From an uncultured cyanobacterium (GTDB taxonomy: Bacteria; Cyanobacteriota; Cyanobacteriia; Cyanobacteriales; Geitlerinemataceae), in the NCBI GenBank assembly GCA_937899645.1, contig CALCCD010000069.1:1-32228 (forward strand): 32,228 bases of DNA, read 5' to 3'. The notes beneath the pieces were generated by a model. It did not search any database and was not told where the DNA came from. It saw only the letters and a list, made by a program, of their open reading frames with translations. This document shows, one piece after another, positions 10,196 to 32,152 of the stretch. Each line of letters opens with the position of its first letter. Position 1 is the first letter of the stretch. The translations under genes and the position numbers were made by a program.

Positions 10196-12469
10196 CTAGC
10201 CCGCACCGCCTAGCTCGGTGATTTTTTCTCGGGCGTTGTTGTAGCAGTCCACCTGACCCTGATCGAGGCAGGTTTTGCCCGCCTGCTGGAGATCGTCGAT
10301 CGCGCCGACGCGGTCGTTAAGCGCCTGACGCACCAATGCCCGATTAAAATACGCCCCGGCAAAATTGGGATTTAGGCGCAGCGCCTGGGTGTGGTCTTCG
10401 ATCGCCTTTCGGTACTCGCCCAAATCGTTGTAGGCACTGCCGCGATTGCTGTAGGCGACGGCGTTGTCCGGATCGAGCTCTAGGGCTTTGGTGTAGTCGG
10501 CAATCGCCCGCTCGTGGTCTTCTTGCGCCGAGTAGGAGAGGCCGCGATTGCTGTAGGCTTTGGCCGATTCGGGGTTGAGTTCGATCGTGCGGCTACAGTC
10601 GGCGATCGCCTCAGCGTACTTCTGGGTTTGATAGTGGGCGACGCAGCGATTTGTGTAGGCCAGCGTGGCGGTGTCGTCTAGCTCGATGGCTTTGGAGCAG
10701 TCGGCGATCGCCGCTTCCAGGTCGCTGAGGTTGAGCTGTACGCGACAGCGGTTGACGTAGGCGTTAATCGCTAGCCCACGGAAGTTCGCGAACTTTTCGT
10801 CTGTTTCGTCCGGCACGAGCCCGATCGCTTTCGTGTAATCTTCGAGCGCGCCTTGGTAGTTACCCAGGCTCGAGAACGCCCGCCCGCGGCTGTAGTAAGC
10901 GTCGGGCTCCTGGGGATCGACGCGGATCGCTTGAGTGAAGTCAGAAATCGCCTTTTGCTTGTCGCCGAGAGCAGAGTGGGCGAGGCCGCGACTGATATAG
11001 GGGTAGGGGTTCTCTGCGTCGAGTAGGATTGCCTGGGTGTAGTCCTGTAGGGACGACTGGAAGTCATCGACCTCGTGAGATACCAGGCCGCGATGGTAGT
11101 AGGCGTCCGGATCGTTGGGGTTGAGCTGGAGGACGCTACTGAAGTCGGCGATCGCCTCTTGGTAGTTCCCAGCGTCGGTTTGGACGAGGCCGCGATTGAA
11201 GTAGGCGTTGCTGTCGTTGGGGTCGCGCTCGATTGCCTGACTGTAGTCGGCCACCGCCAGCTCGTAGTTGCCCATGTCGTAGTGGACGTTGGCGCGGTGG
11301 TAGTAAGCGCTGGCGTCGTCGGGGGCGATCGAGATGGCGCGATCGAAGTCCGAGAGCGCACCGGGCTCGTCGCCGTTTTCGATTTTTTCTAGGCCCTGCT
11401 GGTTGTAGACGCGGGCGCGACTCTCGCTCGGTCGCTGCCAGAACCACAGCACGCCCACCGACGCAAACAGCACCAGCATGGCGAATCCGGCGGCGCGGGG
11501 GAGTTTGGCTCGCGTGCGATCGAGGCGATCTTTCAGGCCCTCCCAGGGAGCGTTCGGCGCGGCCTCCGCCACGGCCACGGCACTCCCGGCAGCTTCATCG
11601 TTCTCCGCGGCGTGATGCTCGACGAGGCTGTCGGCACAGTCGTAGCGATCGACGATCGCGACGAGTTCTTCAAGAACGTCGCGCGCGCTCTGATAGCGCT
11701 GGCCGGTCGAGTAGGCGACCATTTTATCGACGATATCGGCGAACTCTTTGGAGATATCGGGAGCGCGATCGTGCCACTGCATCCGGCCATTGCGATCCTG
11801 GAGCTTTGGCAAATTATTGGCGGCAACGCCCGTCAGCGCCTGAACGGCGATCGCGCCGAGGGCGTAAATATCGCTGTTGAACTGGGGGTTGCCCTGAAAC
11901 TGCTCGACCGGCATATAAACCGGCGTCCCGGCGGCGATCGTGCGGCTGTGATTTTCTCCGGCAATCTGCTGGCTGAGCTCTTTAACCGAACCGAAGTCGA
12001 TTAGGGCGATCTCGTCGTCTTCCACGCGACGGATCAGATTGTCGGGCTTGAGATCGCGGTGGATAACGCCTTCGCCGTGGATAAATTCGAGGATCTCCAG
12101 AACGCGATAGACAATCGCCACGACTTCGTCTTCTAGCAGCGGGCGACCGGGCAGGATTTCTTCCGCGAGGGGCTGGCCGTCGATGTACTCCTTAACGAGG
12201 TAAAGCTGGTGTTTCTCCTCGAAATAGGCCAGCAACCGGGGGATGCGATCGTGGTTGCCCAGCTTCTCGAGGGTTTCGGCCTCCTGCTTGAACAGGCGCT
12301 CGGCGTTTTGGCTGTCGTCGATATCTTCGCGTGCCTGAACGAGCTGCTTGACGACGCACTTGGGCATGCCCGGGCGTCGCAGGTCAGCAGCAAGATACGT
12401 CTGGCCGAACGACCCGGAACCGAGCACCTTTATGATTCGATAGCGTCCATCGAGCAGTTGACCAATCAC
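10196..12469 (-). CDS. Membrane-bound Ser/Thr protein kinase with TPR repeats
   Basis: This 757-residue Hanks-type kinase spans residues about 10-275: the glycine loop GSGSFG at 17-22, catalytic Lys41 in CVVKQL, the HRDLKPDN loop with Asp139, the DFG motif at 158-160, and APE-like activation-segment features around GTPVYMPVEQF. One transmembrane helix (AAGFAMLVLFASVGVLWFW, about 326-344) separates the cytosolic kinase from roughly ten TPRs (from about 353 to 735), which should face the periplasm or lumen. All catalytic residues seem present, so it is probably active. The product is a sensor kinase phosphorylating Ser/Thr proteins in response to a TPR-bound signal. It starts with GTG at 12467-12469, 28 bp after the DUF2062 gene, so the two are likely co-transcribed. 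Confidence 0.95.
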   Translation of the reverse strand: MIGQLLDGRYRIIKVLGSGSFGQTYLAADLRRPGMPKCVVKQLVQAREDIDDSQNAERLFKQEAETLEKLGNHDRIPRLLAYFEEKHQLYLVKEYIDGQPLAEEILPGRPLLEDEVVAIVYRVLEILEFIHGEGVIHRDLKPDNLIRRVEDDEIALIDFGSVKELSQQIAGENHSRTIAAGTPVYMPVEQFQGNPQFNSDIYALGAIAVQALTGVAANNLPKLQDRNGRMQWHDRAPDISKEFADIVDKMVAYSTGQRYQSARDVLEELVAIVDRYDCADSLVEHHAAENDEAAGSAVAVAEAAPNAPWEGLKDRLDRTRAKLPRAAGFAMLVLFASVGVLWFWQRPSESRARVYNQQGLEKIENGDEPGALSDFDRAISIAPDDASAYYHRANVHYDMGNYELAVADYSQAIERDPNDSNAYFNRGLVQTDAGNYQEAIADFSSVLQLNPNDPDAYYHRGLVSHEVDDFQSSLQDYTQAILLDAENPYPYISRGLAHSALGDKQKAISDFTQAIRVDPQEPDAYYSRGRAFSSLGNYQGALEDYTKAIGLVPDETDEKFANFRGLAINAYVNRCRVQLNLSDLEAAIADCSKAIELDDTATLAYTNRCVAHYQTQKYAEAIADCSRTIELNPESAKAYSNRGLSYSAQEDHERAIADYTKALELDPDNAVAYSNRGSAYNDLGEYRKAIEDHTQALRLNPNFAGAYFNRALVRQALNDRVGAIDDLQQAGKTCLDQGQVDCYNNAREKITELGGAG

Positions 12470-25008: not shown

Positions 25009-25141
25009 GTGGCTCCTGGGTTTTCCTGTCGAACGCGTAACTTGCGGGTGAAAAGCTTCTGTGCGCCGACGCCCGCGATCGGAGACAATCGATTGCAGGC
25101 GCGCCGAGATGCGCCCCGGACTCAACCTCGATCTCCACTCC

Positions 25142-28100
25142 ATGCAACCGACCGACCCATCTAAATTCACCGATAAAGCCTGGGATACGATCGTCGCCTC
25201 CCAAGACGTCGCCCGCCGCTACCGCAACTCGAATTTAGAAGTCGAGCACCTGGCGATCGCGCTGGTCGAGACGGTTGACCTGTCCCACGAAATTCTCAAG
25301 CCCGCAGGTGTCGAACCCGAAGCGCTGACCAAAAAGCTCGACCTGTTCGCCCGTCGCCATCCGCGCGTGGGATCTGTAGATCAGCTCTATCTGGGTCGCA
25401 GCCTGGACACGATGCTCGACAAGGCCGAGCGGGCACGCGAGAACTTTAACGACGAGGCGATCGGGGTCGAACACCTGCTGCTGGGATTCGCTGAGGACGA
25501 TCGCATCGGCAGTCGCACGATCGTCAGCCTCGGCGGCAGCCAAGCAGATATCGCCCAGGCGATCGACGACCTGCGCGAACAGGCAAAACAGGCCGCCGAA
25601 GCCAGTCGTTCTAAACCTAGCGGTCGCGCTGGCGAAGCGGGCAAGGATGATGAAGATGCCGACCTTGGCGTCCTCGAGCGCTACGGTCGCGACCTGACCG
25701 AACAGGCACGCCAGGGCAAGCTCGACCCGGTGATCGGACGCGACGAAGAAATCCGCCAGCTCGTTCAGGTGCTGTCCCGTCGCCGCAAAAATAACCCGGT
25801 GCTGATTGGCGAACCGGGTGTCGGAAAAACCGCGATCGCCGAAGCTCTCGCCCAGCGCATCGTCAACGGCGACGTTCCCGAATCGCTGAAGGGTCGCCAG
25901 CTCGTCTCGCTGGATATGGGCAGCCTGATCGCCGGGGCGAAGTTTCGCGGTGAGTTTGAAGAGCGCCTGCGATCGGTGATGCGCGAGGTGACGCACTCCG
26001 ATGGCCAAATCGTCCTGTTCATCGACGAGCTGCATACGGTGATCGGCGCGGGTGGTGGTGGCAGTCAGGGCACGATGGACGCGGGCAACCTGCTCAAGCC
26101 GATGCTCGGACGCGGCGAGCTGCGCTGCATCGGTGCGACGACGATCGATGAATATCGCAAGCACATCGAGAAAGATCCGGCGCTCGAACGGCGCTTCCAG
26201 CAGGTGTTCGTCGGTCAACCGGACGTGGAGGCCACCATTTCGATCCTGCGCGGCCTCAAGGAGCGCTACGAAGTCCACCACGGCGTTACGATTACCGATT
26301 CGGCGCTGGTGGGCGCAGCGACGCTGTCCCACCGCTACGTTAACGATCGCTGCCTGCCGGACAAAGCGATCGACCTAATCGACGAAGCCGCCGCCAAGCT
26401 GAAGATGGAGATCACCTCCAAGCCAGAAGAGCTAGAGGACGCGAGTCGGCGGGTGCGCCAGCTCGAGATGGAAAAACTCTCGATCGCATCCGAAGAAGCG
26501 CGTCTCCCCGGTGGCGCGTCGAATACGGCACAGGAACGACTGGCGCGGATCGATCGCGAAATGACCGACCTCAAGCAGCGCGAAGAAACCCTCAGCGTTC
26601 AGTGGGAACACGAAAAGGGCGTCCTCGACGGCATCACGCACCTGCGCGAAGAAGAAGAACAGCTCCGCCTGCGTATCGAACAGGCCGAGCGCGACTACGA
26701 CCTCAACACCGCAGCCGAGCTGAAGTACGGACGCCTGGAACAAGCGCAGATCGAGCTAGAAGCCAAAGAGGCCGAGCTGCTGAAAATGCAGGAAGACGGC
26801 TCGACGCTGTTGCGCGAACAGGTCACCGAGGCCGACGTTGCTGAAATCGTGGCGCGCTGGACGGGCATCCCGGTCAATAGTCTGCTGGAGTCAGAACGGC
26901 AAAAGCTGCTGAAGCTGGAGCAAGAGCTGCACAAGCGCGTCGTCGGCCAGTCCGAGGCGGTGTCGGCAGTGGCGGCGGCGATCCGGCGCGCGCGCGCGGG
27001 CATGAAAGATCCCGGACGCCCGATCGGCTCGTTTATGTTTATGGGGCCGACCGGTGTCGGTAAAACCGAGCTGGCGCAGGCGCTGGCCGCGTCGCTGTTC
27101 GACGACAAGGATGCGATGATTCGCATCGATATGTCCGAATATATGGAGAAGCATTCGGTGTCGCGGCTGGTCGGCGCGCCTCCGGGATACGTGGGCTTCG
27201 ATTCCGGCGGGCAGCTCACCGAGGCCGTTCGCCGATCGCCCTACTGCGTGCTGCTCTTCGATGAAGTGGAGAAAGCCCACCCGGACGTGTTCAACGTGCT
27301 GCTCCAGGTGCTCGACGATGGCCGCGTCACCGACTCCCAGGGTCGCACCGTGGACTTCTGCAATACGGTCATCATTATGACCAGCAACATCGGCTCGCAA
27401 CACATCCTGGACGTGGCGGGCGATGGCGCGCAGCACGAAGAGATGTCGAAGAAGGTGTTCGACGCGCTGCGATCGCACTTCCGCCCGGAATTCCTCAACC
27501 GCGTCGATGAGATCACGCTATTCCACGCCCTGGGCAAAGACGAGCTGCGCCAGATCGTCGGCATCCAGTTCCAGCGCGTCGAGCGGCTACTGGCCGACCA
27601 GAAGATCGCGATCAAGCTGACCGATGCGGCACAGACTTACATCGCCGACGTGGGCTACGACCCGGTGTACGGCGCGCGTCCGCTAAAACGGGCGATCCAG
27701 CGCGAACTGGAAAACCCGATCGCCACGAAACTCCTGGAGCTGGCATTCGTAGAAGGTGACACGATCCGCGTGGACTGCTATGAGGACGCGCTAGTGTTTG
27801 AGAAGGTGGTCGAGACTGCACCGGAGCCCGCGATCGAGGCCGCGTCGCCGGAAATTCTCGAGCCGACGTCGATGGCAGACGCCGCTGAAGCTGCCGAGGT
27901 CGAGCCTTCGATCGAAACGCCAGTGGAAGCTGTCGCGACACCGGTGGAGCCCGCCGAGACGGTCGAATCTGTCGAGGCCAGCGTTGCTGAAGCAGAAGTT
28001 TCCGAAGAACCCGAATCGATTGAGTCTGAGTCGGTGGAGACTGAGCCGGTAGCTGAAGAAGCCGAGGTGGACGAGATCGACCCAATCGACCCAGATGCCA

Positions 28101-28366
28101 TTTCGCCAGAGACGATCGATGCGGCGGGACTAGAGATGGCAGACCGCGATGTGCCGAGCGATCCGAGCGCGGAGCCCCAGTTCGAGCCCGAGCCGGAATT
28201 CGAGCCCGAGTTCGAGCCAGATGATGAGTTTGCCGAGTTCGATGCGACACCGGTGGTGCGATCGGCGAAGCCGTCTCAGCCCGTTTCCGCCGAAGTCGTC
28301 ACGGCAGTGGGTTCGCCCCCGACGCGCAGTGCGGCGGCGGACGAGGATGAAGACTGGGAGTTTTAA
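25142..28366 (+). CDS. clpB: ClpB-type disaggregase with long acidic C-terminal tail
   Basis: This 1074-residue hexameric AAA+ chaperone works with DnaK to dissolve protein aggregates in the cytosol. The [15 protein letters not shown] start is typical of cyanobacterial ClpB. The Clp_N domain (two repeats, to about 150) is followed by NBD1 with Walker A GEPGVGKT from Gly223 and Walker [10 protein letters not shown]. The coiled-coil M domain (around 430-555) is present, which excludes ClpA/ClpC. NBD2 has GPTGVGKT from Gly635 and [13 protein letters not shown]. No ClpP-binding IGF/IGL loop was noticed. The ClpB core ends near residue 889. About 185 further residues, Glu/Pro/Val/Ala-rich and almost without lysine or arginine for the first 110, end in [11 protein letters not shown] 25142 is preferred over upstream GTG 25061. 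Confidence 0.93.
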
Positions 28367-28406: not shown

Positions 28407-29807
28407 CTAACTCCGCTGGTTGGCAGCAGCTTGGAGGCGCTTGGTTTCCCGGACGACGGCTTCGATGTCGCGCGTACCCGATCGCTGGACGTAGTTGATC
28501 TTAATCTCGTCCACCAGCGCCACCAGCAGCGACTCGATCTCATCCAGGTTCTTCGGTTTCTCAACCTCGGTTTTCAGCGCCTTCGCGAAGTTCTGCGTCA
28601 GGTTTTGCGTCAGCTCCGCGCCGACGGGGTCTTCGATCGCGCCGACAATACCGTCATAGATCGCGCCGACGACTTCGTGGGAGATGCGCTTCGGTAGCTC
28701 CTCCATACCGGGAACCAGCTTGAGGCTCTGGTAAGCGGGCAGCGCCTCGACCGCGCCGAAAACAGTGTGATGCAGCAGCGACTCCAGGTCGGGGCGAATC
28801 TTCGGCAGTACGTCGTAAACGCTGACACCGATCAGCCGTTGGGATAGCTCCTCGACTTCATCGACGTTGTTGAGGTCGATATAGTCTTCCGGCTGTTCGA
28901 GGCTTTGCAACGCGTTCAGTAGCGCGTCTTGACGGATGGCGGTCTGGACTTGATCGAGCACCTGGATAACGACGGTTTCGGTCATCTCCGCCGCGACGCC
29001 CGCTAACACGAACTCGCTGGCGCGGCGGCGCAGGGGCTCCAGGTCGAGGATTTGCGCCCGATCGAGCCGCACGGCCACGGGAATCACGCGCAGCCAGCGG
29101 TAGAACGGCAAGAGTAGCGGCACGTCAAACCAGCGCAGCAGCATCGCCTCGCGCCAGCCCGTACCCAGCCGCCGCGACATCACCCAGGTGCGGGTCAAGA
29201 ACTCCAGGCCGAAGAAGGCGATGAAGAACGAGTCGATGAACCAGAAGCGATCGACGAAATCGCCGGTCTCGCTGATGCCCCGGAAATAGTTCGTGCGGAA
29301 GTTCGGGTAGAGTTCTGCTTCGTACAACTCGATTGAAGCTTCCCAGTTTTCCCGCAGGTGCGCTTGCGACCACAGTTCTCGAAACGAGTCCTTTGCCGAG
29401 TCGTTGCCGATGTAGTCGCGCACGGAATTTTTGATGCGCTCTAGGTTGCCGGTTTTCTCGGCGAGCTGGAACGGGTTATCTTCGATCGTCTCGATGCTGC
29501 GCTCGCGCAGATCGGCCAGGATGACCTCGACTTCCTCAGACTCGACGCCGGTGAGCGCCACTTGGGTTTTGAGGTCTTCGACGCGCTCGATGTACTGCTC
29601 CGTGTCGCGGTAGGGCTCGATACCTTTGACGCGATCGTAAGTTTCGTGGATCGCGGGCGGCACGCTGAGGACGTAGAAGTCGCGCCAAGAAATGTAGGTA
29701 AGGTCGAAGATGACGAGGCCGAGGTCGGCGAGGGCGATCGCGGCGAGGGCGCGCTCGAACCAGAGCGACAGGCGGCTGCGGACTTTGCGCGGGCGGCGAG
29801 AAGACAT
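28407..29807 (-). CDS. Conserved-type membrane protein, ion-transporter-like, function unknown
   Basis: This 466-residue protein has an N-terminal membrane helix (ALAAIALADLGLVIFDLTYI), a long extracytoplasmic helical region, and a second hydrophobic pair around FWFIDSFFIAFFGLEFLTRTWVM. A basic segment follows (WREAMLLRWFDVPLLLPFYRWLRVIPVAVRLDR), whose spaced arginines recall the S4-S5 part of voltage-sensor channels. The C-terminal half is soluble and helical, dominated by repeated amphipathic helices (VIQVLDQVQTAIRQDALLNAL, ELTQNLTQNFAKALKTEVEKP). No pore-selectivity sequence is seen. I infer a membrane scaffold or sensor and give no name. It starts at ATG 29807 and is convergent with clpB. 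Confidence 0.75.
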   Translation of the reverse strand: MSSRRPRKVRSRLSLWFERALAAIALADLGLVIFDLTYISWRDFYVLSVPPAIHETYDRVKGIEPYRDTEQYIERVEDLKTQVALTGVESEEVEVILADLRERSIETIEDNPFQLAEKTGNLERIKNSVRDYIGNDSAKDSFRELWSQAHLRENWEASIELYEAELYPNFRTNYFRGISETGDFVDRFWFIDSFFIAFFGLEFLTRTWVMSRRLGTGWREAMLLRWFDVPLLLPFYRWLRVIPVAVRLDRAQILDLEPLRRRASEFVLAGVAAEMTETVVIQVLDQVQTAIRQDALLNALQSLEQPEDYIDLNNVDEVEELSQRLIGVSVYDVLPKIRPDLESLLHHTVFGAVEALPAYQSLKLVPGMEELPKRISHEVVGAIYDGIVGAIEDPVGAELTQNLTQNFAKALKTEVEKPKNLDEIESLLVALVDEIKINYVQRSGTRDIEAVVRETKRLQAAANQRS

Positions 29808-30808: not shown

Positions 30809-31891
30809 CTAGCGAACCATGCCAGTCAGCAGCGGCTCGTCAGACTCAACGGTACTGCGACGCGTAATCAGCTCGGCAAACTCGACCTGCTGCTCGTCGT
30901 CCATCACGTCGCGCATGTCGCTCAGGCTGGAGTAATACAAATCGGCGAGGCTGCGATGGATTTTGCGGATGGTCGAGCGCGAGCGGCGTGCTTGACGGTT
31001 CTCGCCTGCGAAGATTTGGTCTTGCAGAGTGTTGCGCGCCTCGGCTAGGGCAATTTCTTGGCGATCGCGCTCTTCTAGGTAGTCCTGGTGAATGCGGTTG
31101 ATGGCAACGCGCTGGTTGTCGGTCAGCTCCAGGCGATCGCGCCAGTCCATGTTCGGGTCGTCGGCCACTGGCGCGCTGTCAACGCCGGGAGGCTCGGGCA
31201 AAGCGATCGGACTGGGGGTCGGAGCTGGGGGAGCCGGGTCGATCGCTACGTCCGTGTTGGTTTCGGCCAGCTCGGCCAGGGTGCTGTCGTGAGTCAAGTA
31301 GATGTGTCCGAGGGTGCGGCCTTGGTAAGTGCGTTTCGTGAAGCGCCAGCCCGGATTTAGCTGGACTTTGCTGAAGTCGTCGGTATAACCCGCGCGGCCA
31401 ATTTCGAGGCGGGGGCCGTCGCCACGGAAGGGATTAGCCATCAGCAGCATTTCATCGCCGCTACGCACCAGGCTCAGAGTGTAGCCAACGCCTAGGTCTT
31501 CACCGCCGACGCGGACGGAGTAGGCGTTGCTGTCAGTGGCGCGACCGCAGATGCCAGTGAAGTCGAAGTCCAGCAGCAGCGGCTCGACAACGGTCGGCGC
31601 AGAGCCGCTTTCCGACCAGCAGGGGCGGGTGCTGGCTTTTTGCTCGACAATTAGCAGCGAGCGGCGGATCGTCGTGCCAACGGGAGCGGAGATGGCAACG
31701 AAGTCTCGCTGGCGGACTTCTTCTTGACCGAACAAGGCAGCGTTGGCCGGGGCGATGCTGCCGAGGAGAGTCGCGCCGAGTAGGGTCGCACTGAAGGTGG
31801 CGAGCTGAACTTTTTTGGGGAGTTTTTGGGAAGGCTGGCCGGAGAGTTGACCGGAGAATTTGTCGGCGATGAGGCGTGCGATCGTGTTCAT
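30809..31891 (-). CDS. Exported DUF3747 protein with Spy/CpxP-like C-terminal region
   Basis: This 360-residue protein has a long signal peptide (KVQLATFSATLLGATLLGSIAPANA, cleavage near residue 50) before ALFGQEEV. The DUF3747 domain, typical of cyanobacteria, follows with CWSESGSAPTVVEPLLLDFDFTGICGRATDSN and the strand-rich EMLLMANPFRGDGPRLEIGRAGY. After a Pro/Ala linker with APTPSPIALPEPPG, the last 110 residues are helical and charged (LELTDNQRVAINRIHQDYLEERDR to DDEQQVEFAELI). They resemble Spy/CpxP-type periplasmic LTxxQ proteins. DUF3747 function is unknown. A frame up to 32068 exists, but ATG 31891 gives a proper signal peptide. An intrinsic terminator follows at 30694-30719. Confidence 0.85.
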   Translation of the reverse strand: MNTIARLIADKFSGQLSGQPSQKLPKKVQLATFSATLLGATLLGSIAPANAALFGQEEVRQRDFVAISAPVGTTIRRSLLIVEQKASTRPCWSESGSAPTVVEPLLLDFDFTGICGRATDSNAYSVRVGGEDLGVGYTLSLVRSGDEMLLMANPFRGDGPRLEIGRAGYTDDFSKVQLNPGWRFTKRTYQGRTLGHIYLTHDSTLAELAETNTDVAIDPAPPAPTPSPIALPEPPGVDSAPVADDPNMDWRDRLELTDNQRVAINRIHQDYLEERDRQEIALAEARNTLQDQIFAGENRQARRSRSTIRKIHRSLADLYYSSLSDMRDVMDDEQQVEFAELITRRSTVESDEPLLTGMVR

Positions 31892-32152
31892 GGCTGTTCC
31901 TGCGTCGTGCGTGTGAGGTGCGGGTGCTCGTCCCGCTTCGATGTGTTTATTGTGCGGGGCGCTCGATAGCAGCAGAACGTGCTGCGTTCTACTTTGCGAA
32001 CTGTCTCCGCCCCCCTGTGACAATGGGAGTCCTGGCTTTTTAGCTCGGACGATCGCACAACTGCACATTGCCCCCGCTCCGAGCCGTTACTGGAGCAGGC
32101 GCAGACCCTTTCGGACTCGGAGCGTTGCCGGAAAAAATCGCGCTCTATGAAA

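Follow-up and report, generated by a model that had tools for sequence, protein, structure and literature searches.

A long C-terminal tail with a conserved terminal peptide on a cyanobacterial ClpB, probably a tether for a docking motif

The ClpB encoded in this stretch of cyanobacterial DNA carries a C-terminal tail that, judged by comparison with its relatives, is a real part of the protein and is under selection in a few short blocks, the C-terminus among them. The tail is best read as a flexible tether for a C-terminal docking motif, and we consider this reading a probable one. The window, as the term is used here, is the whole stretch of 32,228 nucleotides that was analyzed, contig C69 of genome G000, which measures 4.55 Mb and was rated 100% complete.

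The window is 60% G+C and contains 43 copies of GCGATCGC, which we take to be the HIP1 octamer of cyanobacteria. Positions 10196-12469 (minus strand) encode a protein in which a protein kinase domain precedes a long TPR array, and positions 30809-32068 (minus strand) encode a protein that fuses DUF3747 with an LTXXQ-motif stretch. Translation of the window determined that the reading frame at 25061-28366 (plus strand) is open throughout. The ATG at 25142 was taken as the likely start of ClpB, for a predicted length of 1074 amino acids, because the start is conserved among full-length relatives of this paralogue; 18 of 19 others begin with MQPTD, and the remaining one begins with VQPTD. The features of the gene are as follows.

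25142..27799, plus strand: ClpB core (N domain, NBD1, M domain and NBD2; residues 1-886), from TIGR03346, Pfam, the PDB match and the start MQPTD
27800..28366, plus strand: C-terminal tail (residues 887-1074 and the stop codon), probably disordered, from composition, AF2 and the family tails
28103..28150, plus strand: conserved tail block 1 (residues 988-1003), kept in G001 and G002, with low pN/pS when pooled with blocks 2 and 3
28220..28258, plus strand: conserved tail block 2 (residues 1027-1039; DDEFAEFxATPVx), kept in G001 and G002
28280..28363, plus strand: conserved tail block 3 and C-terminus (residues 1047-1074), kept within the genus, with V, V, V, R and W invariant in 8 rows
28340..28363, plus strand: acidic-Trp terminal motif DEDEDWEF (residues 1067-1074), from the Trp survey of long tails; DnaK3-like by eye, weakly so by score

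The NCBIfam ClpB equivalog model TIGR03346 matched residues 9-886 with 1234.2 bits (cut-off, 1232.1), the best solved ClpB in the PDB aligned to residues 8-887, and the Pfam ClpB_D2-small domain was complete. Walker A and B motifs were present in both modules (GEPGVGKT and DEVEKAH among them), and the AF2 model had long helices at residues 429-551, consistent with the coiled-coil M domain. Scores against the ClpG and ClpK models were 771.3 and 793.1 bits, respectively, below the cut-off of 1900 bits for each. The nine best named relatives were all cyanobacterial. ClpB_D2-small was matched at six places in G000, and the genome has two ClpB-like paralogues: the window copy, presumably ClpB2 of the two cyanobacterial ClpB paralogues, and one on contig C40, which has a tail of just 17 residues and is a long-branched outgroup in our tree. 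The NCBIfam and PDB matches and the final D2 strand, which ends at residue 889 in the AF2 model, place the end of the core at about residue 886-889.

The first-pass annotation of this DNA, made from the letters alone, had described a tail of about 185 residues past about residue 889, rich in E, P, V, A and D, free of Lys and Arg in its first 110 residues and ending in DEDEDWEF. Each of these points held. Residue 889 fits the ATG start, with position 27800 falling at residue 887. Residues 887-1074 (188 amino acids, about 186 of them past the core) include 43 E, 30 A, 25 P, 20 V and 15 D, with a pI of 4.05 and a net charge of -53, and the translation ends in DEDEDWEF. Only five K or R are found from residue 887 onward; K888 is followed by none until R1002, leaving 113 residues (889-1001) without a basic residue. 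AF2 returned pLDDT below 50 over residues 892-1074 and no helices, but the whole ClpB model was poor (57.2; 18 rows), so the low confidence in the tail is weakly informative. The tail is an evolved extension that is probably disordered in solution.

The ClpB tail is also carried by both other species of the genus (G001 and G002), and the ends in these two congeners are EDEDWDF and DDDDWEF. Three blocks of the tail, comprising 56 aligned codons, had pN/pS of 0.06-0.11 over the three species pairs (pS 0.61-0.83, pN 0.05-0.08; uncorrected proportions), compared to 0.59 for the tail outside the blocks between G000 and G001, where identity was 38%. The blocks were chosen by eye for conservation, so part of their contrast to the remaining tail follows from that choice; the abundance of synonymous changes relative to the few amino acid changes inside the blocks does not. 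The G002 tail is divided between two contigs, in different reading frames (L009 and L130), and was read in two pieces. The break is probably an assembly fault in a genome that is 86% complete. The split tail is the one observation that would favor an artefact, whether a lost stop codon, read-through or the annotation of a neighboring frame. Such an origin has very little probability in our estimation, given that the blocks are conserved with many synonymous changes across three species, which disfavors a lost stop codon in particular, and that all 12 complete members of the family have a long tail. The two doubts that the first-pass annotation had itself raised, a tail absent from relatives through a lost stop codon and an end that is not conserved, were thus answered by the presence of the tail in both congeners (in two pieces in G002) and throughout the complete family tails, and by last residues that are conserved within the genus.

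Those 12 complete family tails, the window's included, ranged from 77 to 271 residues, counted from residue 880, and from -69 to +2 in net charge. The six complete tails of genus g6 had linkers rich in Pro, Lys, Gln and Ser, with net charges of only -5 to +2, and the ClpBs of this genus end in VVSVSATVVDPMEI.RGRPVQ.D.FPW(E/D). The ends of ClpB in G004 (g3) and G005 (g4) are related to the g6 end, and in all, an end of this kind (VSATVV...R...FPWE or SWE) is kept by 3 of 5 sister genera. In 8 aligned ends from g1, g3, g4 and g6, which have differing linkers, five columns (V, V, V, R and W) were invariant. A profile of the ends, run against 195 genomes, recovered the ClpB of 10 family genomes (E <= 2.1e-13), several of these being the rows from which it was built, and matched no protein besides ClpB below E 0.004. 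Two of the 12 complete tails had no Trp among their final eight residues. In G003 (g2), a similar stretch includes a Trp, but 23 residues follow it, so that this W is 24 from the end; G006 (g5) lacks a terminal Trp, its W residues being at -25 and -50. Both branch outside the other family ClpBs in the tree, and the end profile misses their ClpB. Because a related end is kept while length, sequence and charge vary, the feature conserved within the family is the terminal peptide and not acidity. The interpretation offered in the first-pass annotation is therefore upheld in part. Tails that differ in length and sequence yet end in conserved blocks agree with a flexible, recruiting tether, whereas acidity as the key property does not agree with g6 tails that are nearly neutral yet keep the related end.

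We surveyed ClpB tails across the order and obtained complete tails, counted from residue 880, for 134 of 155 genome handles (195 residues for G000 by this count). The 21 handles outside the survey were G002, G011 and G021, in which the tails end at contig ends, and 18 others. The median tail was 29.5 residues, and 37 tails had at least 60; a few of the short tails may stem from the second ClpB paralogue, in genomes where it gave the top match (possibly G043). Trp was present within the last eight residues of 18 of the 37 long tails (60 or more residues) and of 0 of the 97 shorter ones, leaving 116 of 134 tails without a W end. Of the taxa with long tails, 7 of 20 genera and 4 of 11 families (f1, f22, f28 and f29) had Trp ends, and among the long tails the W was precisely at -2 in 12 and at -3 in 2. 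With the Trp rate elsewhere in the long tails as the base, the naive binomial chance was 6e-6 by genus, which is too optimistic owing to kinship within families, and 6e-4 by family. On a tree of 37 selected ClpB cores, which are no random sample, the Trp-end label needs four changes, at least three of which are forced by well-supported branches. These changes suggest repeated gain, or gain and loss, of the Trp end. Strongly acidic tails were found in g1 and f29. In one genus of f29 (L287-L292), the tails also have extra internal acidic-Trp sites (e.g., DDDWGEDE and NWLDEDxDE) besides the W near the end.

Fourteen genomes were searched for other proteins with such an end. The pattern [DE][DE]W[DE]F-stop gave 13 sites, and the 7 with a real stop, all of which were read, were ClpB in G000, G001 and G002, a 189-aa ORF in G006 that on inspection is not ClpB, and three short ORFs (13-36 aa). 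With [DE][DE]WF-stop there were 50 sites; loci were read for 30 of them, and all 9 ORFs of 100 or more aa among those were DnaK3. In G000, [DE][DE]Wx-stop gave 19 sites, and the three real-stop ORFs of 100 or more aa were DnaK3 and two others. An end of this type is rare in G000, yet not unique to chaperones. The genomic neighbor of clpB was considered separately as a partner. This gene (about 28407-29807, minus strand) encodes 466 aa without a Pfam or NCBIfam match. All 14 family genomes gave a match to it, 9 of them also a further and weaker one, and it adjoins clpB in G000 alone. It lies 5-6 kb off in G009, at least 50 kb from clpB in G004, G007, G008 and G010, and on a different contig in the remaining genomes; it was rejected as a candidate because the adjacency is found only in G000.

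One of the three full-length DnaK proteins of G000 ends in NAYDEDWGDEDDWF, its last six residues being DEDDWF, and was confirmed as HSP70 (L307, L311). We identified its relatives as DnaK3 because a GFP-tagging primer for sll1932 (dnaK3), printed in PMC4297356, translates to LQNGWDDDDDDWF directly ahead of the tag linker. DnaK3 was read in 90 of 147 genomes (loci L311-L400), and 86 were complete after L385, L389, L392 and L396 (cut or containing N) were dropped. The DnaK3 tails were 55-215 residues long, with W at -2 in 85 of the 86 and F or L last in 81. DnaK3 is reported to be essential in Synechocystis (PMC7609799, PMC4297356), is concentrated in the thylakoid region and is found with Vipp1 (PMC4297356). 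A C-terminal GFP fusion of DnaK3 was fully segregated (PMC4297356), and a free DnaK3 end is thus dispensable for life although dnaK3 is essential. Our coverage of the literature on cyanobacteria, outside of which most subscription journals lie, yielded no account of the ClpB tail or of a motif or function at the DnaK3 end. Another DnaK of G000, at L306 (C124), adjoins a GrpE gene (Pfam GrpE) and has a long low-complexity tail that ends in NPFV, unlike the other two full-length DnaKs.

The tails of DnaK3 and of the window's ClpB share a variable linker and an acidic-Trp end, and both are found on chaperones of the same genome. They differ in that DnaK3 has two Trp, with W at -2, F or L last and the second W upstream of the acidic run, a pattern that the window's ClpB, with one W at -3 and F last, does not show. 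W ends are also lineage-specific on ClpB, whereas they are near universal on DnaK3 in the order. On visual inspection, the ClpBs of g1 and f29 have ends that resemble the one on DnaK3. When this likeness was scored against composition-preserving shuffles, however, there was no clear excess over the 134 tails: 5 reached p<=0.02 (G012, G000, G041, G111 and G063; 2.7 expected) and 8 reached p<=0.05 (6.7 expected). Among single genomes, G000 had p=0.007 and its congener G001 had p=0.20. The AF2 model of DnaK3 was poor (49.5; 17 rows). Opposite charges as a cause of binding between the two tails were rejected, both being net negative in G000 (ClpB, -55; DnaK3, -8).

Several known systems invite comparison. 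In PMC6212638, the acidic C-terminal DDLD of yeast Hsp104 is described as binding dicarboxylate-clamp TPR co-chaperones; as an Hsp100 disaggregase with an acidic C-terminal docking motif, Hsp104 is the nearest known working model. Its end is DDLD, whereas the window's ClpB end holds a Trp on a tail of about 186 aa and would have a TPR reader as a candidate by analogy; DEDEDWEF does not match a DDLD/EEVD-like terminal motif. For ClpG/ClpK, PMC8024975 describes a C-terminal extension that is predicted to be disordered and has some effect in vivo. The ClpG extension (20-40 residues, rich in Pro and Lys) is the nearest bacterial parallel that we found, and it differs in that the window's core is ClpB. 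The window's ClpB end belongs to neither the Hsp104 DDLD type nor the ClpG extension type. The C-terminal tip of SSB has acidic residues and an aromatic end on a flexible tail, and the first-pass annotation had likened the ClpB end to it. The window's protein is an AAA+ disaggregase, and no SSB domain was among the 25 of 27 Pfam families displayed for the window. The analogy is a resemblance that our data did not support, and closer parallels are the DnaK3 C-terminus and Hsp104 DDLD. EEVD, which is also used by class B J-proteins, is unrelated in sequence to the window's ClpB end, for which a docking role is putative. On eukaryotic Hsp70/Hsp90, EEVD is a shared terminal code that co-chaperones read (PMC6212638).

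The main rivals to a flexible tether are a pseudo-substrate acting in cis and a role for bulk charge. The N domains and pore loops of ClpB bind hydrophobic or aromatic segments, and the linker is long enough for the acidic-Trp end to reach its own ring (at the N domain, the M domain or the pore) by folding back and to regulate it as a pseudo-substrate. AF2 gave the tail no structure that would favor this, but a model of such low quality cannot settle the matter; any resemblance to the DnaK3 ends would also have to be coincidence, and we regard regulation in cis as unlikely. Alternatively, the tail could act in bulk as a bristle, acidic or entropic, that maintains the solubility of ClpB or fends off non-clients, its sequence being irrelevant. 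The strongly acidic tails of g1 and f29 and the drift outside the blocks are what such a bristle would predict. The low pN/pS of the three blocks is not, and the nearly uncharged g6 tails that keep a related end are hard to fit, so that a bulk property of this kind seems improbable.

The tail could also dock ClpB on a proteasome-like or other self-compartmentalized peptidase in the manner of HbYX, in which the penultimate residue is aromatic. The penultimate W of 12 long tails among the 37 and the single Pfam Proteasome match in each of the 8 other family genomes searched would be consistent with this. G000 itself, however, was without a Pfam Proteasome match although rated 100% complete, and such matches were present in 67 of 147 genomes of the order; we give docking on a peptidase scarcely any credence.

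With the flexible tether as the favored reading, the ClpB tail would hold a short linear docking motif at the NBD2 face in six copies per hexamer, a position on the ring that we infer from the known architecture of ClpB. The linker would be free to drift, and a partner, presumably bound in trans, would read the terminal peptide (VV...R...acidic-Trp). Weighing against this reading are the two family tails without a terminal Trp, the 116 tails of the order that lack a W end, the 17-residue tail of the other paralogue and the dispensable free end of DnaK3. The likeliest type of partner would be a protein of the chaperone network, such as a J-protein or a TPR protein, to which the acidic-Trp-Phe/Leu C-terminus of DnaK3 would bind as well; such a shared reader would bring the cell's Hsp100 and one of its Hsp70s to the same place. 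Because the shuffle score showed no clear excess, a receptor common to the ClpB and DnaK3 ends is only a lead, and a doubtful one. Equally tentative is a cyanobacterial acidic-Trp C-terminal code that would be fixed on DnaK3 and repeatedly gained on ClpB, with one receptor gathering Hsp70 and Hsp100.

Bacterial ClpB is usually described as recruited via its M domain (by DnaK) and its N domain (to aggregates). With a selected docking end on its long tether, ClpB would gain a third route of recruitment, and the near-universal DnaK3 end offers a candidate for a receptor shared with ClpB. If true, the acidic-Trp code would be to bacteria what the EEVD/DDLD code is to eukaryotes.
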